Part shown: in pieces, positions 31,764 to 47,394 of the stretch
Numbering within the stretch: the stretch's first letter is position 1
Layout: each line of letters opens with the position of its first letter
DNA from: Candidatus Acididesulfobacter guangdongensis
GTDB taxonomy: Bacteria > SZUA-79 > Acidulodesulfobacterales > Acidulodesulfobacteraceae
Length of the DNA: 64,000 bases
NCBI GenBank assembly: GCA_004195045.1
Contig: SGBC01000003.1
Coordinates: forward strand, 372,001-436,000
Direction: 5' to 3'
The notes under the pieces: generated by a model
Databases searched by the model: none
What the model saw: the letters and a program-made list of their open reading frames with translations, nothing else
What the model was told of the DNA's origin: nothing
Position numbers and translations under genes: made by a program

Positions 31764-32135
31764 ATGAAAGAAATATTATATAAAATTAAAAATTTACCTC
31801 CTGAAATCAATAGGACGCATTTTTGGAGTTATGACAAAGAAAAAACGGGATTGCCTGCAGCTATTATAATAGAGCAGGTTCTAAAATACGGCACGCTTGA
31901 AGAAATATTTACACTTTTTAATCTTATAGATGCCGACGAATTTATGAATATTTATCGGAATACGGTAAGACCGGTATTTGAAGGTAAAGGCAGCTACTTA
32001 GTTTATAATTCGCTGTCTAAAGAAGAACAAAAAACATACGAGCAAAAAAATTTAAGCAGAAGCCCCGGTCTTTTAAAACTTTTTGACCTTATTTTACCTA
32101 TTATGTACAAAATCAAGACGCAAAAAATTGATTAA
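31764..32135 (+). CDS. Partner protein of the AbiEii-like cassette (hypothetical)
   Basis: This 123-residue hypothetical protein (KNLPPEINRTHFWSYDKEK near the N-terminus) is helical, with no recognisable catalytic motif. It precedes the AbiEii-like nucleotidyltransferase by 28 bases. Small proteins of this kind often sit directly before AbiEii/AbiGii toxins, and I infer it is the antitoxin or partner. It lacks the winged-helix look of classical AbiEi, so the role is uncertain. Confidence 0.5.
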   Translation: MKEILYKIKNLPPEINRTHFWSYDKEKTGLPAAIIIEQVLKYGTLEEIFTLFNLIDADEFMNIYRNTVRPVFEGKGSYLVYNSLSKEEQKTYEQKNLSRSPGLLKLFDLILPIMYKIKTQKID

Positions 32136-32163: not shown

Positions 32164-32850
32164 ATGAAGTTATGCAAACTTATGTGGTTAGCGGAAACAG
32201 AAAAATTACTTCGAGAACTTTCTGAATATAAAGAGATTGAAAGTTTTATTTTCACCGGAGGCTCTGCATTATCCTACTATTTAAAGCATAGATTTTCTGA
32301 AGATATTGATTTTTTTTACTCTGCATCGTCTAATATTTTAGATAAAAAGAATGTAAGAAAATTAATAGACAAATTGAGTAATAAAAACTATAAAATTATA
32401 AATACTCTAGATGAAGAAGAGCAGTTAGATTTTTATATAGGTAATGTAAAAAATACTTTTTGCGCTTATTCAAAATTTGGACATTTATTGCAAAAAAATA
32501 ATAAAATATTGTTTGGGAATATAAAAATTGCTGACCTCGACGTTTTAACGGCTATGAAAGTTGATGCATTGATAGGTAGAGAAAAAATAAGGGATTACTA
32601 TGATTTATATGCTATATCTAAGAAATGTGGATTTAAAAAAATAATAGATGATTCACTAAAGGTAAATTCTAATTTTAATACTAAATTATTTATAAAAAGA
32701 CTCATAGAGATGGACGACAAATTAACGGACATCTATATTGATGATTATTTAAAACCAAAATATTCCATCGATAGAGTTAGTATAAGAATTTATTTTGAAG
32801 AGCAGATTGATAATTATATCAGCGCTAATTATATTAAATCTATAAAATAA
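32164..32850 (+). CDS. AbiEii/AbiGii-like nucleotidyltransferase
   Basis: This 228-residue protein of the DNA polymerase beta-like superfamily has GGSALSYYLKHRFSEDIDFFYS (about residues 33-54), the GG.AL plus S.D.D signature of AbiEii toxins. ADLDVLTAMKVDALIGREK and RDYYDLYAI follow, equivalent to the later conserved blocks. AbiEii toxins block growth by nucleotidylating tRNA or other targets during phage infection. It directly precedes the CRISPR island, which suits a defence neighbourhood. An ordinary MNT-type nucleotidyltransferase is the alternative. Confidence 0.75.
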   Translation: MKLCKLMWLAETEKLLRELSEYKEIESFIFTGGSALSYYLKHRFSEDIDFFYSASSNILDKKNVRKLIDKLSNKNYKIINTLDEEEQLDFYIGNVKNTFCAYSKFGHLLQKNNKILFGNIKIADLDVLTAMKVDALIGREKIRDYYDLYAISKKCGFKKIIDDSLKVNSNFNTKLFIKRLIEMDDKLTDIYIDDYLKPKYSIDRVSIRIYFEEQIDNYISANYIKSIK

Positions 32851-32978: not shown

Positions 32979-34124
32979 TTAATTTTTTGAAGTTGTACAG
33001 CTAACCCCTATGAGTTGACATCCTTTCATCAAAACACCATCAAGCTCAAATTTATTTTCTGGACCGCCTGAACTCTTATAAAGCTCTTTATTAAATAAGA
33101 TTTCATCGAAATTATCCTTAAAATTAATCTTTTTTATATATTGTTCTAACCAAAAACCGTCTAAAAATTCAATAGCATCATTATATTTTTTGTATTCTAT
33201 TTTAGTATTAAAATTAGGTTTTTCAGAACTATCATAATAATAAATTCTACAATCTTCAGGAAAGGAGTTTATTATCTTCATGAAAGTTTCATTGGGCCGG
33301 TAATTCAATGTCTCTATAATATTTCTAAAAATATCAACCTTTTTTTTAAATTTTGATCTATCGGCGTCAGTTTTTATTTTATTTTCTTCTTCATTCAAAC
33401 AATTATCGGATGCAGCAGCCTTTAATATATTAGAATCTTCGTTTTTTATATTATGAAATATTTTTTCCATTATTTTATGATCGTCGTAAGGTTTAAAAAT
33501 ATCTCTATTGTATCCATCGGAATTGCAATAAAATTTTTCTATTTCATCTGACTCTATTATTTCAATAAATTCAATAGAGCTGCAATAATGTTTTTCGGTA
33601 TTTTTTATTATCTCAAAGCTATGCAGTTCAGTTAAATAATCAAAATTTATTTTTATTTTATCTGCAATACTTTCAGGAATGTTTTTTTCGTTGTCAAATA
33701 TGATTTTCCAATCTCGTGCCGATAAATAAGATGCGTCAAACTTATTCTTAAATTTCTCTTTTAAATAGTAATAAGAATATGCAGACATCGCCTTAGAACC
33801 TCCTGTAAAAAATAAATGCAATTTCCCATTATTAGAATTTTTTGCTATTTTTTCCAGTTGGTTTTCTATAGCTTTTTTGCTGCCAATATTCGTAATATAT
33901 ATTATTTCCTGAAATTCTACTTTTTGAACATCGTTGGCATAATCGGGTGAGAGATTTTCTTTTGAAAAATATTTTTGAAGACTTTCTGCATATTCTTTTG
34001 TACTATCTTGATTTATACCTGAATTTTTTTCTGAACATATCAGCCATATTTTTTTTAGATACTTATTTTGTCCAATAAAATATTGTAAAGCAATATAATT
34101 AGGTAATGGGTTAGTACCAATCAA
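32979..34124 (-). pseudogene. CARF-nuclease (DUF1887-like), eroded at both ends
   Basis: This 381-residue ORF carries a CARF-like N-domain (IGTNPLPNYIALQYFIG; FFTGGSKAMSAYSYYYLKEK) and a C-terminal restriction-like fold start (FLDGFWLEQYI; then FELDGVLMKG and IGVSCTTSKN). The family should open with one more beta strand. The codons for it (DLVLLIGTNP) are in frame upstream of the only start, a TTG, and run into a TGA 10 codons before it with no ATG. At the other end the ORF stops right after SCTT, where members normally continue through further nuclease residues. After the TAA the frame still reads ALKLICLIRQL before another stop. I infer a decayed cyclic-oligoadenylate-sensing nuclease. A functional short variant is possible. 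Confidence 0.6.
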
Positions 34125-34164: not shown

Positions 34165-36618
34165 AGTCTCAATCCCTTTTAAATCAGGGAAATATTCAAA
34201 TGATGCGGGAGATGTTTTCGTTTCAAACGCTTTTTCATATACAGGTCTCAATCCCTTTTAAATCAGGGAAAATATTCAAATAAGGGAAAGGATTATTCGT
34301 TGAAGGAGAACTTAACATTGTCTCAATCCCTTTTAAATCAGGGAAATATTCAAATAAAACTTGATAATTCTAAGGCGTCTATATCATTAGGCGCTGTCTC
34401 AATCCCTTTTAAATCAGGGAAATATTCAAATATAAGGAGGCTTTAAAATGAATAAAAATTATTATTTTTGTCTCAATCCCTTTTAAATCAGGGAAATATT
34501 CAAATCCTTCTTTAAGGTAAGAACTACCGTACATGTGTCTATGTACGTCTCAATCCCTTTTAAATCAGGGAAATATTCAAATCCTTCTTTAAGGTAAGAA
34601 CTACCGTACATGTGTCTATGTACGTCTCAATCCCTTTTAAATCAGGGAAATATTCAAATCCGGATACGACTTAGAAAAAAACGATGGCGAAATATTCGGT
34701 CTCAATCCCTTTTAAATCAGGGAAATATTCAAATTCAATTGACAGATGCGCAGGTTAAAACTGCCGAGAGGCGTCTCAATCCCTTTTAAATCAGGGAAAT
34801 ATTCAAATAGTATAAGAAACTCGTCCAACAACAGAGGCAGTTTTTGTCTCAATCCCTTTTAAATCAGGGAAATATTCAAATTCAATTGACAGATGCGCAG
34901 GTTAAAACTGCCGAGAGGCGTCTCAATCCCTTTTAAATCAGGGAAATATTTAAATTTTACAAATTTAAAAGATTTTGAAAGATTGAATAAACTTTGTCTC
35001 AATCCCTTTTAAATCAGGGAAATATTCAAATTTACATGGAAACTAAAGAAATAAGAAGAATTGCAGATGAGTCTCAATCCCTTTTAAATCAGGGAAATAT
35101 TCAAATTCATATTTATTATTTATTTATTATCAGCTTTTATCTATTGTCTCAATCCCTTTTAAATCAGGGAAATATTCAAATTTTATAGTTTTTATATAAA
35201 CTTTTCAAACTAAATTTAGTCTCAATCCCTTTTAAATCAGGGAAATATTCAAATCAAGCCAAATAAACCCGCCACCGCATTAGGAAAATAGGAAAGGTCT
35301 CAATCCCTTTTAAATCAGGGAAATATTCAAATCTGAAATAAGAAGCAATTCTTATTTCAGCAGCACTATAGTCTCAATCCCTTTTAAATCAGGGAAATAT
35401 TCAAATTTAGCTAATAAGGAATTTGAAAACGTTTTGTGTGTGTTTTCAGTCTCAATCCCTTTTAAATCAGGGAAATATTCAAATTCTTATTTCAGTAGAA
35501 GTCTTAAAAAGGATGAGTATAAGTCTCAATCCCTTTTAAATCAGGGAAATATTCAAATATTTGAGGGCATTAAAGTTTTCTTGGGACGGCAAAACAAATG
35601 TCTCAATCCCTTTTAAATCAGGGAAATATTCAAATTAGGAAATATTTTTATTCAGACATAAAAGATTTTGAAAGGTCTCAATCCCTTTTAAATCAGGGAA
35701 ATATTCAAATAAATAAAAAAAAGGAGATTAAAAAATGAAAATGAATGAAATGTCTCAATCCCTTTTAAATCAGGGAAATATTCAAATGGGGAGTTAAAAA
35801 AAGAAAGTGTATTTAATTTTGAAAGTCTCAATCCCTTTTAAATCAGGGAAATATTCAAATTTTTATCGCATATACATTATTTATTCTTTATTATTTTATC
35901 TTGTCTCAATCCCTTTTAAATCAGGGAAATATTCAAATAAAAAATAAAATAAAAAAAAATTTTAAAGCCAGCCGAGTCTCAATCCCTTTTAAATCAGGGA
36001 AATATTCAAATTCGTAGCAAAAAAACAGGGCAATAATATTGCCTTTCACCGTCTCAATCCCTTTTAAATCAGGGAAATATTCAAATAACAATAAAAAAAG
36101 GAGAGTTATTATGTTAGATGAAGTGTCTCAATCCCTTTTAAATCAGGGAAATATTCAAATGAAGGCAGCAATGCCTTCTTTAAGGTAAGAAGCGCCGTAC
36201 GTCTCAATCCCTTTTAAATCAGGGAAATATTCAAATCGGTAAGCTGAATGCTGACGTTATTTTTCAGGGTAGTATTTGTCTCAATCCCTTTTAAATCAGG
36301 GAAATATTCAAATATTTATTCTAATGATGAAAAATCATTAGAATATCAAAAATGTCTCAATCCCTTTTAAATCAGGGAAATATTCAAATTCATAGGGGAT
36401 CAAAGAAGGTTTAATTTTTATTTTTTCCGTCTCAATCCCTTTTAAATCAGGGAAATATTCAAATATAAAATAAAATAAAATAAATATAATTAAAAAAAGG
36501 ATAAGGTCTCAATCCCTTTTAAATCAGGGAAATATTCAAATTTAAGTAAGGAGTTCTTAACTCCCGAAGGGGAGTTAAAGAAGTCTCAATCCCTTTTAAA
36601 TCAGGGAAATATTCAAAT
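34165..36618 (-). CRISPR. CRISPR array, 33 repeats of 36 bp, type III-like
   Basis: Thirty-three copies of a 36-base repeat (on the plus strand starting GTCTCAATCCC, centre TTTTAAATCAGGG, ending ATATTCAAAT) alternate with 32 spacers of 37-44 bases. On the minus strand the repeat ends ATTGAGAC, a variant of the 8-base 5' handle (ATTGAAAC) of Cas6-processed systems, so transcription runs leftward from the cas1 side. Variant repeats lie toward the left: an inserted A at 34245-34281 and a C-to-T at 34920-34955. The first repeat is 34165-34200 and the last 36583-36618. Spacers at 34506-34546 and 34583-34623 are identical, as are 34735-34772 and 34882-34919. The repeat holds a CCCT/AGGG stem. Confidence 0.98.
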
Positions 36619-36921
36619 GCTGCCTTTTGTAACTTATTTAATTTATTAAGTTATATGGCTCGTTTTTCGTAATGTATCGGTTATCCACAACTTATTAACA
36701 AATTTATTGTTGAAAATTTAAATAAATACATAAGCTTAAACCAATATACATAATTACTTCCGTTAAGTCAACATTTTTTTGTAAAATAATAGATAACGGA
36801 AAATAGCATTAATACTGATACTCTTTTGTAACTTATTGATATATTTATTATATAATTAAATTACTTTATTTAATTGAATTATCTTATTCATTTTTATTGT
36901 ATATTTTAAGTTCACTCTAAT
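36619..36921 (-). promoter_or_regulatory. Putative CRISPR leader
   Basis: This 303-base AT-rich region lies between the array and cas1, on the side predicted to be upstream of crRNA transcription. CTTTTGTAACTTATT occurs at 36624-36638 and again at 36823-36837. TTATCCACA, a consensus DnaA-box 9-mer, is at 36681-36689. I can point to no clear promoter, and no ORF is visible. Confidence 0.6.
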
Positions 36922-37908
36922 TTAAGGGTATGGCATAGCAACCTGATTTATTGGTATAAAATCTGTTCTATTTGTTATTGATTTTTTTAGCATATTAATC
37001 CTATCTTTAATATAAAGTCTTTTAGATTTTGGGGTCGATTCAGCCATAAGCTTGTCATAATGATTAAAATATTTTTTCATGGCATGATTTTTTAAAAATA
37101 CCCCGCCTGTTGAAGATACAAAATCATCTTGAGCAATTATTGATTTATTTATAAGTTTCAATGTAAAACCGTCTATTGAGCTTCTAAACTCTTCAACTAA
37201 ATCCAATGCAAGAGATGGACGCCCATAATTTATACCGTGTAAAAAACCGATATATGGGTCAAATCCATTACCGAATAACATATTTAATATTTCATTGGTA
37301 ATCAATGTATATCCGAAACTCAATAAAGAATTTATAGGATCTAATGATGGATTCTTTTCTCTAACTGTAAAAATAAAATTTTCGTTTCTTATCATCATTT
37401 TAAAAGCTTTAAAAAAGTATGCTGCTGCAATGCCTTCAACCCCCATGATAGAATTTATAGTAATTTTATTATCTAATTGCAAAATGCAATTTTTAATTCC
37501 GGTTAATATGTCTTTAAATCTAGATATTCCATAGTTTTTAGAAAAAGAGTAAATAAGGTCAATTTCGTTATTTAATTTAGATTTAACAATCGTTCTGGCT
37601 AATTTTATTTGATATTCTTTATCTAAAAATCTTTCATATTGTATTAATCTTAAAAAAATATTTTTAGATTCCATAGCAGTCAATCTTCCATGACATTTCC
37701 CATTCATCGTAAAAAATGAAACATCTATATTGCTTTCCAATAAAAAATTAATAGCTTGCGTCGTAATTTGAATATTTCCGAATAAAAAAACCTTATCTAT
37801 TTTTATTATAGGTATTTCTAAAATAGTTTTAGAGTTTTTTTGTACAGATAGTCTTCTTGATATTTTTGTTACAACTGCGCCCTGTTCTGAAATATAAAGT
37901 GTCGACAT
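36922..37908 (-). CDS. cas1: CRISPR integrase Cas1
   Basis: This 328-residue Cas1 is the integrase that inserts prespacers at the leader end. The N-terminal beta domain opens TLYISEQGAVVTKI. The helical catalytic domain holds the metal-binding Glu in IMGVEGIAAAYFF (about residue 152), the His in PYIGFLHGINYGRPSLALD (about 219) and the acidic LVEEFR (about 234). It is stand-alone, not fused to the reverse transcriptase as in RT-Cas1 systems. It is the last gene of a minus-strand cas2, RT-PrimPol, cas1 series, next to the leader. Confidence 0.95.
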   Translation of the reverse strand: MSTLYISEQGAVVTKISRRLSVQKNSKTILEIPIIKIDKVFLFGNIQITTQAINFLLESNIDVSFFTMNGKCHGRLTAMESKNIFLRLIQYERFLDKEYQIKLARTIVKSKLNNEIDLIYSFSKNYGISRFKDILTGIKNCILQLDNKITINSIMGVEGIAAAYFFKAFKMMIRNENFIFTVREKNPSLDPINSLLSFGYTLITNEILNMLFGNGFDPYIGFLHGINYGRPSLALDLVEEFRSSIDGFTLKLINKSIIAQDDFVSSTGGVFLKNHAMKKYFNHYDKLMAESTPKSKRLYIKDRINMLKKSITNRTDFIPINQVAMPYP

Positions 37909-38042: not shown

Positions 38043-41000
38043 TTAAATCTCAATAAAATATTTTATAGAGCCATCTGTTTCATTTTTGATATCATTATCA
38101 TTATGTTCAGTATTGTTAATATTTCTTTTATTGTCAACTGATATTCTATATAACTTTCCATATTTTGTATTTAGATAGTTTAATTCTTTATTTTTAAAAA
38201 TTGCATCTATATTCCCTTTTATTTTATTAAAAAATTGCAATTTTTCAGAAAGTTCTTTTTTTGCCGAAATAAATTCTAATATTAGATTATCAATTTCCGT
38301 TTCTGTCTCTAAGTTTATTTCGTTACTTGATGTTTCAGATGAAAAATATGATTTATCTTTTATAATTAATTCTAAATCAGATATTTTTTTCTGTTTATTT
38401 TCTATAGTAACATCAGTATTAGATTTCACATCGGAAGATTTATCGTTAAATTTCAAGATGGTGTCTGCTTTAATTTGGTCTTTTTCCTGATTTTTCGCAT
38501 TTTCCGATTCTTTCAATTTAATTTTTAGCATCAATTCGTCTTCGGCTTTCAAATCAGCTATTTTCTTATTAAAATCTTTTAGATGCATTGTTATATTTGG
38601 ATATTCACCCTTTTCAATTTTAAATTTACAGTTGCATCCAACTTGCGAAGTTATATATGAAAGCCATTCTCTTATTTTATAGCATGATATAGAATATTTA
38701 TCGCCTTTTACTTTATTTATATACTTTTGAGTAATATTTTTATCGTAATTTGCACAATAGCTAATTATATAATGAACTAATTTTTTACCGTTATAAGCAT
38801 ATCCTATTGAATATAATATCGATAATCGTTCAGTGTGAGTTAAATATTTAGTTATTTTAACTTTATCGTATAAATATTTTAAAACATCGCATTTATCAAG
38901 AAGTATCTTAAGCTCTTCGCTTTCTATATCCGATAATGCAATTTCTGTGTCTATTGCCCCTATTGCCCTATAATTTTTTCGGTTTAATATCTCTTTAATA
39001 GATTGTTCAGAAATTCTTTTTATATCATTTATTATAAATTTAAACTGATTTACAATTTTATCGCCTTCGTCATTCACAAAATATGTTTCGGCGCCTGTCA
39101 ATAGATTTATACCAAGCGGCAGTTTTATTAGACTTCCTGCAGCATCTTTATTTATCTTATTTTCTTTTGGAAAAATTTCAATATTTATATGAGGTCTAAA
39201 TTTATGCTTATTAATAAAATAATTTACAAATTCCCTGCCTGTTTTTGCCAAAATAGGTTTTTCAAAAAAGAACCATACATGATAACCTTTATAACCGCTG
39301 AATTCGACGTAGCAATCAGAATCCGTTTCTGCTTTCAAGCTATTTTTAATTAAAATAGAATACATTAGTGCTTCATTAAGATAATCTCTATATTCGTTTG
39401 AATCCAAAGAAATACTTTTTATATGCTCCGAATTAATATCGATATCTATTACAGCATAATTTATGCAGTTATCGTTTCGAATAATATATTCGCCAATAGT
39501 ATTGATGCCGTTTATGTGCTCAAAAATAACATTTTCGTCTAATTGGTTATTTATTTTAGTATAAAATAATTTTTGATTTTTATTGATTAAAGCTTTAGCG
39601 TAATAATTTTCGGCTCCGGTAAAAATGTTCAGATATTTTAAAGCAATATCAACATTATTTATATCTATAATCTTCTTGTTATCTTGGTAAGTAGCACTGC
39701 TATCGTAATAACCTGCGTTAATTATGTTATTTATATTATCTTTATTGTCCTTTTTATCTTTATTTTCAGCAGCCATTTTTTCTGGAGTTAAAATATCTGC
39801 ATCTGGTACACTATCGTATAGAGACTTGCTGTCTGTTTTATTTTCTGTCTCCGAGTCCTTATTTTCCACTTCAGATTTTTTTTCATCTATGTTTTTATTT
39901 ACATTTTGATTAATGTTTATGTCGTTAGTTCCTTCTTTTTTTTCAGTTCCTTTTTTGTAATCCTGCATCTTTTCAGAAAGTCCGGTTAAACCCATTCTTC
40001 TGTATATTTCTGACAATTTTTCGTATCCGTCTGTAAAATTCGGATTATTTTCAATAAATCTGTTTAATAACCTTATGGCCTTTTCATACTCATTTTTTGA
40101 CACAAAATAATCGCTTATATTCAAAATTCTTTCTGTATCTCCGCTTTTTTCAGAAATAAAATCAAAAGAATCTCTTTCTAAATCTAATTCATTGCTTAAA
40201 ATAGCCGCATCTAATTTAATATCTCTCTTACATTTTTTATACTGTTCATTTTCATTTACATTTTCATTTCCTAAATCATCAGACAAGATTTTATCTTTAA
40301 TGGATTTAATAATAAACGATGAAATATCTTTCTGAAAGTTTTTTGCAAATAATGCGCTTTTTAAAATTGATAAACCAACATTTAATTCAGGCTTTTCAGC
40401 TATTAATCGATCTATCAGTTCGACTATCTCCTGATAATTATCCTTATTTGCTATTTTTATGTCAAAATAATTCAGCCAGCCGTCAATTATGTTATCTAAA
40501 TATATATTCTTAATGCCGTTTAAAGTTAGTCCGTTAATTTTTTCTGAAAAATTACACAATGATTTTTCTGATGGGTATTTACCTGAGCTGTTAAAATGAT
40601 ATCCGAGAAAATCAAATCCTTTTCTGTTGTCATCACCGATTTTTATGTTTACTATCGAAGTCTTTTCTTTTGATAATTCCAATATTAAATTTTCTTTAAG
40701 GTATCTTTCAGATATATCTTTAAGTTTATAGATATTTTCTTCCGAATCAGAAAAAATTACAAAATCATCTGCATATCTTAAATATTTTGAATTTGACTCT
40801 TTAAAAATGATTTTATCAAAATCGTTTAAATAAATATTCCCGAAAATTGGAGATGTAGGGGCACCAAGGGTAATTCCAGTGTCCTTGCCTTCAGCCGAAT
40901 TTACAATTATTAATCGCAATAAATTTAAGAAAGGTTTATCCTTTATGCGTGCATTAATCTTTTCATTCAAAATCCCGATATTTATAGAATCAAAAAAGGC

Positions 41001-41375
41001 ATGTATATCTGCACTGCAGACATATGATTTGCGTGGTCTATAACCGTAAGAGCATCTTAAAAATTCTTTCTCAAAAATAGGTTCCAAAACATTTAGCAGT
41101 CCGGTATGAACTACTCTATCGACTACAGAAGGTATGCCTAATACTCTAATTTTTCCGGAATTTGGTGATTTATATTTAAATTTTGCTATGGGCTTGGGTA
41201 TATACGATGAAGTTTTAATTTCATCGATTAATAAATGGAGATTTCTGTCTAATTCAGATGCATATTTTTCAATTGTTATGTGGTCCGTACCTGGACCTCC
41301 GCCGCTTTCAGATACCCTTCTGAAAGCGGCCGCCAGATTTGTGAACTCACAAAAATTTTCAAATAAATCAGACAT
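38043..41375 (-). CDS. Reverse transcriptase-TPR-PrimPol fusion of the CRISPR adaptation module
   Basis: This single polypeptide of 1110 residues has three parts. Residues 1-265 form a group II-intron-like reverse transcriptase: GGPGTDHITIEKY, GKIRVLGIPSVVDRVVH, SADIHAFFDSI with the motif A Asp, GAPTSPIFGNIYLND, catalytic YADDF and FDFLGYHF. Residues about 390-460 contain TPR-like helices (YEKAIRLLNRFIENNPNF). After an acidic Asn/Lys linker, residues about 560-950 form an archaeo-eukaryotic primase: YAVIDIDIN (metal Asp pair), FSGYKGYHVWFFFEKPI (His motif) and GSLIKLPLGINLLTG, then a Cys pair in GCNCKF as in CRISPR-associated primase-polymerases. I chose ATG 41375 because AGGTG lies five bases upstream; a TTG at 41396 is in frame. 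It lies between cas2 and cas1. It could copy captured RNA and fill or prime prespacers. Confidence 0.9.
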   Translation of the reverse strand: MSDLFENFCEFTNLAAAFRRVSESGGGPGTDHITIEKYASELDRNLHLLIDEIKTSSYIPKPIAKFKYKSPNSGKIRVLGIPSVVDRVVHTGLLNVLEPIFEKEFLRCSYGYRPRKSYVCSADIHAFFDSINIGILNEKINARIKDKPFLNLLRLIIVNSAEGKDTGITLGAPTSPIFGNIYLNDFDKIIFKESNSKYLRYADDFVIFSDSEENIYKLKDISERYLKENLILELSKEKTSIVNIKIGDDNRKGFDFLGYHFNSSGKYPSEKSLCNFSEKINGLTLNGIKNIYLDNIIDGWLNYFDIKIANKDNYQEIVELIDRLIAEKPELNVGLSILKSALFAKNFQKDISSFIIKSIKDKILSDDLGNENVNENEQYKKCKRDIKLDAAILSNELDLERDSFDFISEKSGDTERILNISDYFVSKNEYEKAIRLLNRFIENNPNFTDGYEKLSEIYRRMGLTGLSEKMQDYKKGTEKKEGTNDININQNVNKNIDEKKSEVENKDSETENKTDSKSLYDSVPDADILTPEKMAAENKDKKDNKDNINNIINAGYYDSSATYQDNKKIIDINNVDIALKYLNIFTGAENYYAKALINKNQKLFYTKINNQLDENVIFEHINGINTIGEYIIRNDNCINYAVIDIDINSEHIKSISLDSNEYRDYLNEALMYSILIKNSLKAETDSDCYVEFSGYKGYHVWFFFEKPILAKTGREFVNYFINKHKFRPHINIEIFPKENKINKDAAGSLIKLPLGINLLTGAETYFVNDEGDKIVNQFKFIINDIKRISEQSIKEILNRKNYRAIGAIDTEIALSDIESEELKILLDKCDVLKYLYDKVKITKYLTHTERLSILYSIGYAYNGKKLVHYIISYCANYDKNITQKYINKVKGDKYSISCYKIREWLSYITSQVGCNCKFKIEKGEYPNITMHLKDFNKKIADLKAEDELMLKIKLKESENAKNQEKDQIKADTILKFNDKSSDVKSNTDVTIENKQKKISDLELIIKDKSYFSSETSSNEINLETETEIDNLILEFISAKKELSEKLQFFNKIKGNIDAIFKNKELNYLNTKYGKLYRISVDNKRNINNTEHNDNDIKNETDGSIKYFIEI

Positions 41376-41401
41376 TGCCTCACCTGATTTTGCCAAATTT
41401 A

Positions 41402-41680
41402 TTAAATAACATAACAGCTTTTATTTTCGTCTCTGGAAAAACATCCTATAATCAATTTGTTCTTAACAGACAACTTATTCAGAGAATAAATTATTATACT
41501 GTCTTTAGACTTATTTATTTTGATTTGACATATTTCCGACAACATTTTATCATATTGTTTTTTGTTTAACGTTGCTTCAAATACGCTGAATTGAACGTGC
41601 GTCCCGTAATCTTTTAAAATCTTAAATAGTTTCAATCTTATTTTGTTATCGGCTATATCGTAGGAAATAATATAATTCAT
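41402..41680 (-). CDS. cas2: CRISPR adaptation protein Cas2
   Basis: This 92-residue ferredoxin-like Cas2 has first strand MNYIISYDIADNKIRLKLFK with the conserved Asp, then DYGTHVQFSVFEATL and a DSIIIYSL strand. It is the structural centre of the Cas1-Cas2 integrase. It is the first gene of the adaptation series; its stop lies 26 bases before the ATG of the RT-PrimPol gene, or 5 bases before that gene's possible TTG. Confidence 0.93.
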   Translation of the reverse strand: MNYIISYDIADNKIRLKLFKILKDYGTHVQFSVFEATLNKKQYDKMLSEICQIKINKSKDSIIIYSLNKLSVKNKLIIGCFSRDENKSCYVI

Positions 41681-41912: not shown

Positions 41913-43682
41913 TTATAGATATTTTTTTATTTCATTCTTTAGATTTTTTATACAAACTGGATTAATTACAATTGCATTTAATTCATTAGCTCTTTTTTTA
42001 ACTGCGTCCTTTATAGCAGGAAAATATGGCTGATTTGCATATTCTGAGTTACAGTTTTCCGTCTTTATATTATTTTCTGCTGCGTTGTTTCTATCTGTAA
42101 TCCCGTCATCTTGCTTATCAAGTATATTATCTGCCGCCGTGCTGACTAAAAAACTTTTAGTAGCAAGACGTCCAACTTTATCTTGAATGGAATAAATTTT
42201 ATAGAATATTTCGGAATTAGCGTCATGTTTTTGCTGTAAAGATTTGCATTCAATCATATATATTTTATTCTTTGAAGTGAATATAACATCTATTTCATTA
42301 TCTGTGCCGTTTTTTTTGCTTAAAGAGGCATTTATCGCTGCATCATCTATTATTCCTTCATCCTTCAGGCTATTTATTTCATTGAAACAAAATTCTTCAA
42401 GCCATCCTCCTGTTAAAAAATCGACAGTGTCTTTATTTATTAAGATTGTGCCGACGATTTTTATATTGGAAGTATTTGAAATAGAATCATCAGAAATTAC
42501 TCTTTGGATATCAACTTTGCAAATGTTCATTTTTTCAAAACTGAAGAATTTTTTTAGTAGTTCAATTTTGATTTCAGTATCTTTATTTTCTTCAAAACTT
42601 TCTTCAAAACTTTCTTCAAAACTTTCCTTGTTTTCCATTGATATGCCGGTATTCTTCCCAGATTTTTCCACCTTTTTAGATAACTCTTCTTCTTTTGCTG
42701 CTTTCATCGCAACTTCTTCTATGACTTCTTTTACAGCTTCTTTTTTTAATTTTACAGTTTTTTTATCAGATTTAGCAGATGTCGTCAGCGTAAAATCTAA
42801 ATTCAATGCAAGTTCTTTGTTTTTAGACAATTTCTTTTTGTGTTCTTTTTCATTGCGATATTGTATCAATAATATAAAAAAATTTGATAACAGTTGTTCA
42901 ATTATGCTGTTTGCTGCAAAATTATCGTCAAAATAGTTATTGATAATCCATTTTGCAAAATTTTCGTCTTTTTTTGATCGTATCTTAATACTATCCAAAC
43001 AATCAAAATTTGTTATATCGACATCATATGCTTTACAATATTCAAATAACGACAACCTTCTTTTTATTATTAGTTTTTCTTCATTGCAATCAGAACAGTT
43101 AAATTGCGATATACTGCGGGTTTGGTTTGTTTTGCCAGTATTGTTAATATTATAATTATTATCGTCATAGTTGTTATTATCGCATAACAGCATTTTTTTC
43201 GACAATTCTGACAGATTGGCAGGAATAATTTCGATAATATTTTCGTCTATAGGCATATAAACTATTTTTTTTGTTTTATTGTTTTGCCTCATTGCTTCAA
43301 ATAATGCAATAGACATTATCTTTGTTCCTAAAGTTATATTTATTATAAATTCATCAAACTTAGAACCATTTTCATATATCCAAAAAGATAATTTTTCTAT
43401 AGTGTCTAAAATTGAATCTTCTTTTACGATAATCGTATAATGTTTTATCTCATTTGCTCTATCTGCTCTATCGGATGCTTCGTTGTAGTAATAACTATTA
43501 ATACTTCTGCTATTTTGATTAATTGCTTTTATTGATTCTAATGTTGCATTTACCTTATTTATTTTTTCCATTTTATCGGTTGAAATAAATAAGACGGCAT
43601 CAGGTTTAAAAAAATCCGTACATAAAATATTCGGAATAGTCTGTGCGCTGACTAACGTTATAAGAAGCGAATTATTTGGCAT
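41913..43682 (-). CDS. CARF-PD-(D/E)xK nuclease (Can2/Card1 type)
   Basis: This 589-residue ancillary type III effector has an N-terminal CARF domain (about residues 5-155; LLITLVSAQTIPNIL, and NITLGTKIMSIALFEAM with the GTK ligand loop), expected to bind cyclic tetra-adenylate. A C-terminal nuclease domain (about 420-589) has GGWLEEFCFNEI followed by the catalytic set Glu463/Asp465 (TDNEIDVIF) and Glu478-x-Lys480 (MIECKS), all intact. Known relatives degrade DNA and RNA when activated. The middle (about 280-370) is a Lys/Glu-rich coiled coil with a tandem ESFE repeat at 353-364. The gene starts at ATG 43682. The ring nuclease gene ends 111 bases upstream. Confidence 0.87.
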   Translation of the reverse strand: MPNNSLLITLVSAQTIPNILCTDFFKPDAVLFISTDKMEKINKVNATLESIKAINQNSRSINSYYYNEASDRADRANEIKHYTIIVKEDSILDTIEKLSFWIYENGSKFDEFIINITLGTKIMSIALFEAMRQNNKTKKIVYMPIDENIIEIIPANLSELSKKMLLCDNNNYDDNNYNINNTGKTNQTRSISQFNCSDCNEEKLIIKRRLSLFEYCKAYDVDITNFDCLDSIKIRSKKDENFAKWIINNYFDDNFAANSIIEQLLSNFFILLIQYRNEKEHKKKLSKNKELALNLDFTLTTSAKSDKKTVKLKKEAVKEVIEEVAMKAAKEEELSKKVEKSGKNTGISMENKESFEESFEESFEENKDTEIKIELLKKFFSFEKMNICKVDIQRVISDDSISNTSNIKIVGTILINKDTVDFLTGGWLEEFCFNEINSLKDEGIIDDAAINASLSKKNGTDNEIDVIFTSKNKIYMIECKSLQQKHDANSEIFYKIYSIQDKVGRLATKSFLVSTAADNILDKQDDGITDRNNAAENNIKTENCNSEYANQPYFPAIKDAVKKRANELNAIVINPVCIKNLKNEIKKYL

Positions 43683-43793: not shown

Positions 43794-44291
43794 CTACTTC
43801 ACAACAACTAAGAACCACCTTATAGAACTTCCTTCAGGTAATTTTATCACCCCTTCAGGCAGCCTTTCGCCGTAGTATTGGGCAAGCAGCAATTCATCGT
43901 TTTCATTTAACTGTAATGTCGTCCTGTTCACTTTAATAGGAAAACTTAATATATTTGAAAGCAATTCTGCTGTTGAGGCGTGACCTATCGCACTTTTATA
44001 TTTTCCAGATGCAATTAATTTTGAAGCATCGGCAGTGGTTATTTCTTCTATTTTTATTTCTGCCGGGAAAGTTTGAAGCATATTTATAGAAAAAGCATTG
44101 CAGAGATATTTGGAACTAGTTATTTCGATAGATTTAATTGTTTTATCTGACGTTTTATTTGATATTATCGATGACATAACTGAAATATTAATTCTTATTT
44201 TATTTATTTTATTTATTTTGTTTATTTTTTTTATTTTATGTCTATTTAAGCTTATATTTTTACTTTTTGATAGCAAAAAACCCCTAGACAT
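43794..44291 (-). CDS. crn2: DUF1874/AcrIII-1-type ring nuclease (Crn2)
   Basis: Residues 61-165 match the DUF1874 family (viral AcrIII-1, cellular Crn2), which cleaves cyclic tetra-adenylate and so switches off type III CRISPR effectors. NAFSINML (residues 65-72) is identical to the stretch I recall from the archaeal virus SIRV1 protein gp29. SAIGHASTAEL carries the catalytic His (His104, equivalent to His47). VNRTTLQL and ERLPEG carry the Arg/Glu pair (Arg143, Glu146). The first 60 residues, with a KINKINKIN run, are outside the family, so translation may start later, for example at Met39 (44177). It lies just upstream of the CARF nuclease it would restrain. Confidence 0.88.
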   Translation of the reverse strand: MSRGFLLSKSKNISLNRHKIKKINKINKINKIRINISVMSSIISNKTSDKTIKSIEITSSKYLCNAFSINMLQTFPAEIKIEEITTADASKLIASGKYKSAIGHASTAELLSNILSFPIKVNRTTLQLNENDELLLAQYYGERLPEGVIKLPEGSSIRWFLVVVK

Positions 44292-45975: not shown

Positions 45976-46230
45976 ATATATGTAAAATTAAATATATATA
46001 AATATGTTAGCTGTCAGCTTTCATTAAGACAGTAATCATATTTATTTATATACTAATAAAACTTTTTGCATTTGTAATTAAAAACAACATTGTTTTTTTA
46101 TTATAATTATTTTATAAATTTACAATCTTAGAAATTTACGATACAATTGCTTGTATGCTTTTGTGTATGCAGTATATGCAGTCGCATTAAAATCATAATT
46201 ATAAGTTATAAAATATCAGCGGATTCTCTT

Positions 46231-47394
46231 ATGAATGAAAAAATTTCAGCAATATTAAATGATTTTAAAATAGCAAAACTGAATTTTGAAATAAAAACTG
46301 AAAATGACACCTTGCTTCCTGACTACAAAGGTTCTACTTTTAGAGGCGTTTTCGGACATATTTTTAAGGATGTAATGTGCATTTCTTATGAAAATGAGTG
46401 CGAAACCTGCAATTTTAAGTCTGTATGTATGTTTAAAAAAATTTTCGACTCGCCTCCTCCTTCAAATTCATCAAGATTAAAAAATTATTCGTCCCTTCCT
46501 CATCCTTACATTATAGAGCCTCCTTTAGAAACTAAAAATTTTTATAAGAAAAATGAAATAATAAAATTTTCGTTGATTTTAATAGGACAGGCTATATCTT
46601 TATTTCCTTATTTTGCATATTCTTTCGGTTTAGCAGGCAGACGAGGCATCGGAAAAATGAAGCAGGGCAAATTTTCTCTTTTTAACATAATAAATGATAA
46701 AAATAAAGAAAAGTTATACGATTTTAAAAAAGAAGAACTGCTGCCGCTCAGAAATTACTATACTGTTAAAGATTTTATAGAAAAAACAAAAGACTGCTGC
46801 TGTACAGGAAACAGCGGCATAGCAAAAGACAGCGGCAGCAATGTTTTGAAACAATTTGTGCCGTATGATACAATAGGCTTAAAAACAGATAGAACTGCGA
46901 TATCGGCTGAAAATAATAATAATCAGCTATATAAATGCAGTAATATTTCAAAAAAAGAAATCTTTTCTGTTAATCTTGATTTTATAACGCCTACAAAAAT
47001 AATCTTTAATGAAAAAATAGTTCAAAATTTAGAATTTCATGTATATATCCGAAACTTGCTCAGAAGAATCTCTAATCTTAACTTTTTTCACTGCGTCAAT
47101 AGCGATAACAAAAAAAATGAAATTAATGATAATCCTGATAATAATATAGATTTTAATTATTATATAGAAAAGGCATACGGCGTTAGGGCAAATAATAATC
47201 TAAAATGGAAATCAGTCGACAGATATTCCAATAGACAGAAAAGGCATATGAAGATAAGCGGTTTTACCGGAAAAATTTCATTTGAAAACGTCGGACAAGA
47301 ATTTTTATGGATTATAAGAGTCGGTGAAATAATACATTTAGGAAAAAACACAACCTTCGGTAACGGAAAATATGAAATAGATTCTATTATTTAA
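46231..47394 (+). CDS. cas6: CRISPR RNA-processing endoribonuclease Cas6 (RAMP family)
   Basis: This protein of about 387 residues is of the Cas6 type that carries a cysteine cluster. The N-terminal block GSTFRGVFGHIFKDVMC with C.TC....VC, then IFDSPPP, and the C-terminal block SNRQKRHMKISGFTGKISFE and IIHLGKNTTFGNGKYEI match this family. The closing Gly-rich loop is the RAMP signature. It should cut the precursor crRNA within the repeat, leaving the ATTGAGAC handle. I chose ATG 46231; the frame stays open to a TTG at 46147. Two low-complexity inserts (about residues 185-235, 290-310) lengthen it. It is transcribed opposite to the other cas genes. Confidence 0.85.
   Translation: MNEKISAILNDFKIAKLNFEIKTENDTLLPDYKGSTFRGVFGHIFKDVMCISYENECETCNFKSVCMFKKIFDSPPPSNSSRLKNYSSLPHPYIIEPPLETKNFYKKNEIIKFSLILIGQAISLFPYFAYSFGLAGRRGIGKMKQGKFSLFNIINDKNKEKLYDFKKEELLPLRNYYTVKDFIEKTKDCCCTGNSGIAKDSGSNVLKQFVPYDTIGLKTDRTAISAENNNNQLYKCSNISKKEIFSVNLDFITPTKIIFNEKIVQNLEFHVYIRNLLRRISNLNFFHCVNSDNKKNEINDNPDNNIDFNYYIEKAYGVRANNNLKWKSVDRYSNRQKRHMKISGFTGKISFENVGQEFLWIIRVGEIIHLGKNTTFGNGKYEIDSII

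Follow-up and report, generated by a model that had tools for sequence, protein, structure and literature searches.

Which form of an invader's genetic material does a CRISPR array store when a reverse transcriptase (RT) stands among its adaptation genes? For natural CRISPR arrays with an RT, the origin of the spacers has been described as enigmatic (PMC5513706). The question is raised by a locus of Candidatus Acididesulfobacter guangdongensis in the window analysed here (the whole 64,000-nt stretch of contig SGBC01000003.1, assembly GCA_004195045.1, positions 372,001 to 436,000), where an earlier note had read the spacers as transcript ends captured as RNA through the adjacent RT.

An array beside an RT-PrimPol adaptation module

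The array, its adaptation module and the neighbouring genes are as follows (window positions).

32979-34124, minus strand: second ancillary nuclease with CARF and PDDEXK domains (Csx1/Card1-type), flanking the array at its trailer end (PADLOC PDLC01885, E 6e-66)
34166-36618, minus strand: CRISPR array, 33 repeats of 36 nt and 32 spacers of 37-43 nt, 30 of them unique
36619-36921, minus strand: putative AT-rich leader between array and cas1, from position and composition
36922-37908, minus strand: Cas1, 328 aa, a separate ORF with no fused RT (PF01867, E 1e-85; TIGR00287)
38043-41396, minus strand: RT-PrimPol fusion (CART-CAPP), 1117 aa (PF00078, PF22548, NF040561 and motifs)
41402-41680, minus strand: Cas2, 92 aa (PADLOC Cas2 models, E 1e-23)
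41913-43682, minus strand: Card1-like CARF-PDDEXK nuclease, 589 aa (PF09002, PF23400)
43794-44291, minus strand: Csx16/STIV B116-like accessory protein (PF08960; PDLC01147)
46147-47394, plus strand: Cas6, crRNA processing (PADLOC Cas6, E 6e-82; PF10040)

The crRNA-strand repeat of the array is ATTTGAATATTTCCCTGATTTAAAAGGGATTGAGAC. Two repeats are variants, and no further copy of the repeat was found in the genome (2,217,123 bases, 5 contigs). Two spacers are duplicated internally, one as an adjacent pair (34506-34623) and the other with one spacer between its copies (34735-34919). The minus strand was taken as the crRNA strand because the repeat read from it ends in ATTGAGAC, an 8-nt tag characteristic of crRNAs in type III systems, and because the leader and cas1 lie on the high-coordinate side of the array. 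With mRNA-sense spacers on the plus strand, the crRNAs are antisense to mRNA, as the earlier note had stated; by sequence and orientation, an ATTGARAC-like 8-nt tag at the crRNA 5' end together with transcript-antisense crRNAs places the array in type III. Also beside the array, an AbiEii-type nucleotidyltransferase gene (32164-32850) and a small ORF upstream of it (31764-32135) form a possible toxin-antitoxin pair.

The RT-PrimPol fusion comprises an RT domain with YADD (residue 208), a TPR-like linker and an AEP primase-polymerase domain with DIDIN at 651 and GYHVW at 704; judged by sequence, the catalytic motifs of both RT and PrimPol are intact. The protein matches NF040561 (CRISPR-associated primase-polymerase type A1, E 2e-83) and the group II intron RT model TIGR04416, and its PDB relatives are group II RTs, the Cas6-RT-Cas1 entry 7kft and the TPR/PrimPol entries 7nqd/7nqf. 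With its predicted group II/CRISPR-associated RT, fused AEP CAPP domain and linkage to cas1 and cas2, the window operon is another member of the known CART-CAPP kind. As in the CART-CAPPs of Caloramator australicus and Geobacillus lituanicus (PMC10415136), an N-terminal group-II-like RT is followed by the AEP PrimPol and a C-terminal region, cas1 and cas2 adjoin, and the system is type III. It falls outside the RT-Cas1 fusion family, its Cas1 having an ORF of its own. The linkage to cas1 and cas2 is kept in relatives. In some of them the RT and PrimPol parts are separated or interrupted by a stop codon (L068:1600-3100, L070:380-1910) and may there be separate proteins.

Effector genes were not found within the window. 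Cas10 and Csm2-5 are encoded on another contig (G000:C1:590-598 kb), and this type III locus, with Cas10 and RAMP proteins, holds the only RAMP-family matches genome-wide. It carries its own array, Cas1, Cas2 and Cas6 and no RT, and its repeat and that of the window both give the crRNA tag ATTGAGAC. With only one RAMP effector locus in the genome, the two arrays presumably supply crRNAs to one complex, and the shared tag suggests that window-array crRNAs would be used by the Csm complex in trans. The Cas1 gene of this RT-less type III-A locus (L035:6543-7336, G000:C1 about 606.5-607.3 kb) is split over two frames; it is intact in genomes G002 and G003.

Initiation regions and stem-loops are enriched among the spacers

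Spacers of the window array with a Shine-Dalgarno sequence followed by ATG (SD-ATG) or with a hairpin are listed here.

34432-34469, plus strand: SD-ATG spacer, AAGGAGG-N8-ATG, mRNA sense, with the motif AAGGAGGCTTTAAAATG
35711-35751, plus strand: SD-ATG spacer, AAGGAG-N8-ATG
36087-36124, plus strand: SD-ATG spacer, AAAGGAG-N8-ATG, reading MLDEV...
35333-35370, plus strand: hairpin spacer, 12-bp stem, GCAA loop, no U-run
36012-36050, plus strand: hairpin spacer, 6-bp stem
36161-36200, plus strand: hairpin spacer, 7-bp stem, GCAA loop
36314-36353, plus strand: hairpin spacer, 12-bp stem
36542-36582, plus strand: hairpin spacer, 9-bp stem

The three SD-ATG spacers are as the earlier note had described them, and so are the purine tracts without ATG that it had marked at 34282-34319 and 36465-36505. 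Its stem lengths were right for 35333-35370, 36161-36200 (with the GCAA loop) and 36012-36050, and one base pair short for 36314-36353 (12 bp, given as 11) and 36542-36582 (9 bp, given as 8). Spacer 36161-36200 has 18 nt in common with the duplicated spacers 34506-34546/34583-34623, in identical orientation. SD-ATG occurs in 3/30 unique spacers, always on the plus strand and never on the minus strand (p = 0.007 vs host DNA; p = 0.06-0.09 vs the most generous nulls, namely MGE or AT-rich viral DNA with both strands counted). Stems of at least 6 bp occur in 10/30 (p = 1e-4) and those of at least 7 bp in 4/30 (p = 0.01). Taken alone, the 30 spacers of this array show a suggestive excess of SD-ATG and a clear excess of stems.

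Arrays of this repeat family in the window genome and nine relatives together gave a pool of 478 unique spacers. Most relatives with this repeat family also carry the same RT-CAPP operon; it was not found for G005, G006 and G016, whose assemblies are possibly broken. In the pool, 38 spacers had SD-ATG in the sense orientation and 0 in the antisense orientation, and 57 (11.9%) had stems of at least 7 bp. A first set of 300 unique spacers from eight genomes accounted for 25 sense and 0 antisense SD-ATG cases and 35 such stems. The held-out set of 178 spacers, collected once the test was fixed, gave 13 sense, 0 antisense and 22 stems (Fisher, 1e-4 for SD and 7e-7 for stems). Nulls were dinucleotide-shuffled spacers and random 40-mers of host DNA, viral contigs and protospacer-bearing contigs, and they yielded about 1-3.6% SD-ATG, even counting both strands, and about 2-3% stems. 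The pooled rates were higher than those of matched-MGE random DNA read on both strands (2.9% SD, p = 9e-8; 2.9% stems, p = 3e-18) and also above those of AT-rich viral contigs. A slightly larger set (493, including 15 G018 duplicates with different borders) was used for the matched-MGE null, U-run counts, ATG positions, 290:85 skew, structure z and SD-core p. The enrichment of SD-ATG starts and hairpins that the earlier note had proposed is therefore far beyond chance across the repeat family. Same-repeat-family arrays of G018 (L068, L250) and G006 (L246) held no SD-ATG or stem of at least 7 bp in about 41 spacers; RT loss as an explanation for G018 was rejected, the RT being present in that genome.

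The form of these features was also considered. ATG positions in SD-ATG spacers are spread (mean 23, sd 7), and a ribosome footprint was rejected, as no sharp footprint appears; exact 5' ends are likewise not indicated. As a class, the hairpins are not the terminators for which the earlier note had taken them: a U-run follows the stem in 2/37 assessable hairpins and an A-run precedes it in 15/37, as base composition predicts. One native terminator is visible as an exception, in two overlapping G004 spacers that hold both hairpin arms and then TATTTTT. An RT snap-back artefact is not favoured as the origin of the hairpins, since the two arms of a single native hairpin appear in these overlapping spacers independently; the native stems in matched targets argue further against it. 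Hairpin edges fall at spacer borders in 8 starts and 5 ends of 35, which can be truncation. Outside SD motifs, pooled spacer pairs overlapping by at least 15 nt share their orientation in 31 cases and oppose it in 1, and the purine skew persists in spacers without SD-ATG or stem (290 to 85).

Two minor observations concern the sequences themselves. Read in target sense, pooled spacers show a mild preference at their ends, with C as the first base in 22% (14% in bulk) and G as the last base in 27% (20% in bulk). The AAGGAGGCTTTAAAATG motif, or its core GGAGGCTTTAAAATG, precedes different genes in spacers of four arrays (34432-34469 of the window, G004, G011 and G000:C1), a pattern that a stereotyped initiation site within one phage group could produce.

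Phage and plasmid targets

Protospacers were searched for with whole sister arrays as queries against the relatives' genomes, and orientation was read from ORFs. Phage- or plasmid-like contigs contained 22 sense and 2 antisense protospacers and 4 that were not orientable, matches that are not fully independent in that several share one gene. The earlier note had named equal strand use, or matches on both strands with a PAM, as counting against its reading; a check on these mapped protospacers of the relatives left the reading unrefuted. Sense protospacers lay inside ORFs (16), at a gene start or 5' leader (4) and at or just past a stop (2). The strict notion of transcript ends is not supported: 16/24 oriented protospacers are wholly gene-internal, others being at starts, in 5' leaders or at or after stops. 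Target genes include two single-strand binding proteins (ssb), an Erf-like protein, a RecE-like exonuclease and a replisome organiser. At one hotspot (L350:749-1204), five spacers from three genomes match a 111-aa ORF of a phage family and its immediately preceding leader, and one of them has a leader hairpin. Protospacers of the type I control array lie nearly all within ORFs.

One spacer of the G011 array (L252:9402-9439) is identical to the organism's own 16S rRNA over 38/38 positions (L348:3252-3289). Its crRNA would have rRNA sense and therefore cannot target rRNA. Ribosomal RNA makes up a tiny share of DNA and the bulk of RNA. The self spacer is compatible with RNA capture but no proof of it, since a preference for rRNA genes has also been reported for RT-free type III systems (PMC9048733). 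Its orientation is as expected if the opposite one is lethal, comparable to RT-Cas1 systems, in which antisense host-derived spacers are selected against (PMC5576922).

For the spacers of the window array itself, no credible target emerged: all hits in the own genome, annotated phages, plasmids and relatives' genomes were to low-complexity or repeat sequence. In IMG/VR, neither three DNA patterns nor a degenerate translated motif led to a target, and a scan with the shared SD motif, which hit 58 scattered contigs, served solely as a null. Three overlapping G002 spacers were tiled into a 29-aa peptide, which matched only same-array spacers and, by chance, phages. The unmatched IMG/VR scans would suit an unusual class of targets, very gene-dense or highly structured (RNA phages, for example), from which random sampling could leave the signature, and finding matches for RT-associated spacers is known to be difficult (PMC5513706). 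However, the protospacers found lie in DNA contigs of related MAGs with phage- or plasmid-like replication and recombination genes, random sampling of those contigs gives 2.9% per feature with both strands counted, and the same SD motif stands before different genes in four arrays, as in DNA phages. We disfavour such a target class and consider it very improbable.

RNA or DNA as the source

Controls without an RT were taken from the same organisms and comprised 351 spacers, 274 of type I (five arrays beside Cas3/Cas7 genes) and 77 type III-A-like (three arrays); every spacer was trimmed to 35 nt as a length control. The controls showed SD-ATG in 3 sense and 4 other cases and stems of at least 7 bp in 6/351 (1.7%), and RT arrays differed from them strongly (Fisher, 8e-7 for SD and 6e-9 for stems). 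Type I controls had SD-ATG in 2 spacers in one orientation and 4 in the other, 4 stems, a purine fraction of 0.512 and a structure z of -0.11. Within G002, stems occurred in 13/89 spacers of the RT-CAPP array vs 0/73 of the type I array. The RT-less type III-A-like controls were intermediate in structure (z -0.41, compared with -0.73 against dinucleotide shuffles in RT arrays) and had nearly the purine fraction of RT arrays (0.563 vs 0.571). They held 1/77 SD-ATG and 2/77 stems, compared with 38/478 and 57/478 (p = 0.03 and 0.009); softer measures gave p = 0.07 for structure z and p = 0.07 for the SD core, and the contrast is modest. This control has only 77 spacers. Strand and purine skew thus go with type III generally, while SD-ATG and perfect stems go with RT-CAPP arrays. 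Strand bias alone does not speak for RNA capture: the same skew appears in RT-less type III-A arrays and is selected by type III interference.

The best reading of these observations, which cover the domain content of the module, the orientation of the spacers, the enrichment of initiation regions and stem-loops and the nature of the targets, is that RT-CAPP captures viral mRNA and favours initiation regions and structured RNA. We put its probability at roughly 0.6. The RT and primase domains, given their content and the published biochemistry of homologues, would copy fragments of invader mRNA to cDNA, and Cas1-Cas2 would integrate the 37-43 bp product beside the leader. Cas6 would then process the minus-strand transcript, and the Csm complex encoded elsewhere would take up crRNAs sharing the ATTGAGAC tag. 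The mRNA-antisense crRNAs would persist since only they protect, which would account for the strand bias. Structured or ribosome-associated RNA fragments may be preferred or longer-lived substrates for copying, perhaps by surviving RNases; RNase III products have been proposed as RT-Cas1 substrates (PMC11014452). Of the earlier note's proposal of RNA capture through the adjacent RT, the enrichment holds up, being strong in arrays with the RT module and weak or absent in RT-less ones. Sense bias, SD-ATG and hairpin excess and the 16S spacer all fit an RNA source, which is unproven because none of the sequences here crosses an RNA-only junction such as a splice.

Selection could produce a similar picture from unbiased DNA uptake if only cells whose crRNAs recognise transcripts, ideally in accessible initiation regions, were protected. 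Strand bias arising purely by selection has been documented in an RT-free Thermus type III system (PMC7515739), and the equal purine skew of RT-less type III-A arrays agrees with it. Those arrays, however, have the same tag and like interference and lack the SD-ATG and hairpin excess, both kinds of array presumably work with the one complex, and stable hairpins are expected to make poor crRNA targets. We judge this explanation improbable.

Capture of mRNA has its main rival in single-stranded coding-strand DNA, exposed when transcription displaces the non-template strand at gene starts, or folded as hairpins, and either copied by PrimPol/CAPP or captured by Cas1-Cas2 itself, so that the RT would be unneeded. 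CAPPs are DNA-dependent primases/polymerases (PMC8211822). The RT-free type III-A system of Streptococcus thermophilus is reported to prefer hairpins, rRNA genes, 5' leaders and the coding strand at positions 10-50 bp after start codons, with ssDNA secondary structure as the explanation (review PMC9048733), and the intermediate structure of the RT-less type III-A arrays here points the same way. Yet these arrays, from the same genus, show a weaker signature than the RT arrays, and in published CART-CAPP fusions the PrimPol was inactive and the RT did the synthesis (PMC10415136). A DNA source of this kind is a serious candidate that we nonetheless regard as unlikely.

We compared the locus with known systems. 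RT-Cas1 systems (Marinomonas mediterranea MMB-1, Vibrio vulnificus and Fusicatenibacter saccharivorans/Record-seq) likewise have an RT in the adaptation module and are type III, and RNA acquisition by them was demonstrated experimentally; there the RT is fused to Cas1, here to PrimPol. Openly readable accounts of RT-Cas1 put the emphasis on transcript abundance and not on SD-ATG or hairpins, and they describe no strong mechanism of orientation. We tentatively suggest that CART-CAPP modules choose prespacers by RNA features, with initiation regions and stem-loops of invader mRNAs preferred, a choice undescribed for RT-Cas1; this is possible, though we would not call it probable. If it is true, a CART-CAPP array amounts to a biased sampling of regulatory sites in RNA.

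The published CART-CAPP work (PMC10415136) is biochemical and, in its accessible part, does not analyse natural spacers; the spacer repertoire of such modules is described here, as far as we could find, for the first time. The findings link an architecture known in vitro to its stored natural content and suggest a preference for ribosome-binding regions and hairpins. The RT-associated spacers of Arthrospira, also natural, linked to type III and mostly unmatched, were left with their source unknown (PMC5513706), while protospacers and signature here point to phage or plasmid mRNA. As far as the openly readable literature shows, the SD-ATG and hairpin signature is new for natural CART-CAPP spacers; parts of it may have been reported in other systems. 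The bacterial order supplies arrays with a readable mRNA signature, RT-less controls from the same genomes and identified phage and plasmid targets. Metatranscriptomes already exist for the artificial acid mine drainage system from which the MAGs were recovered (PMC6776010), and a sister locus is present in Ca. Acididesulfobacter diazotrophicus AP1.
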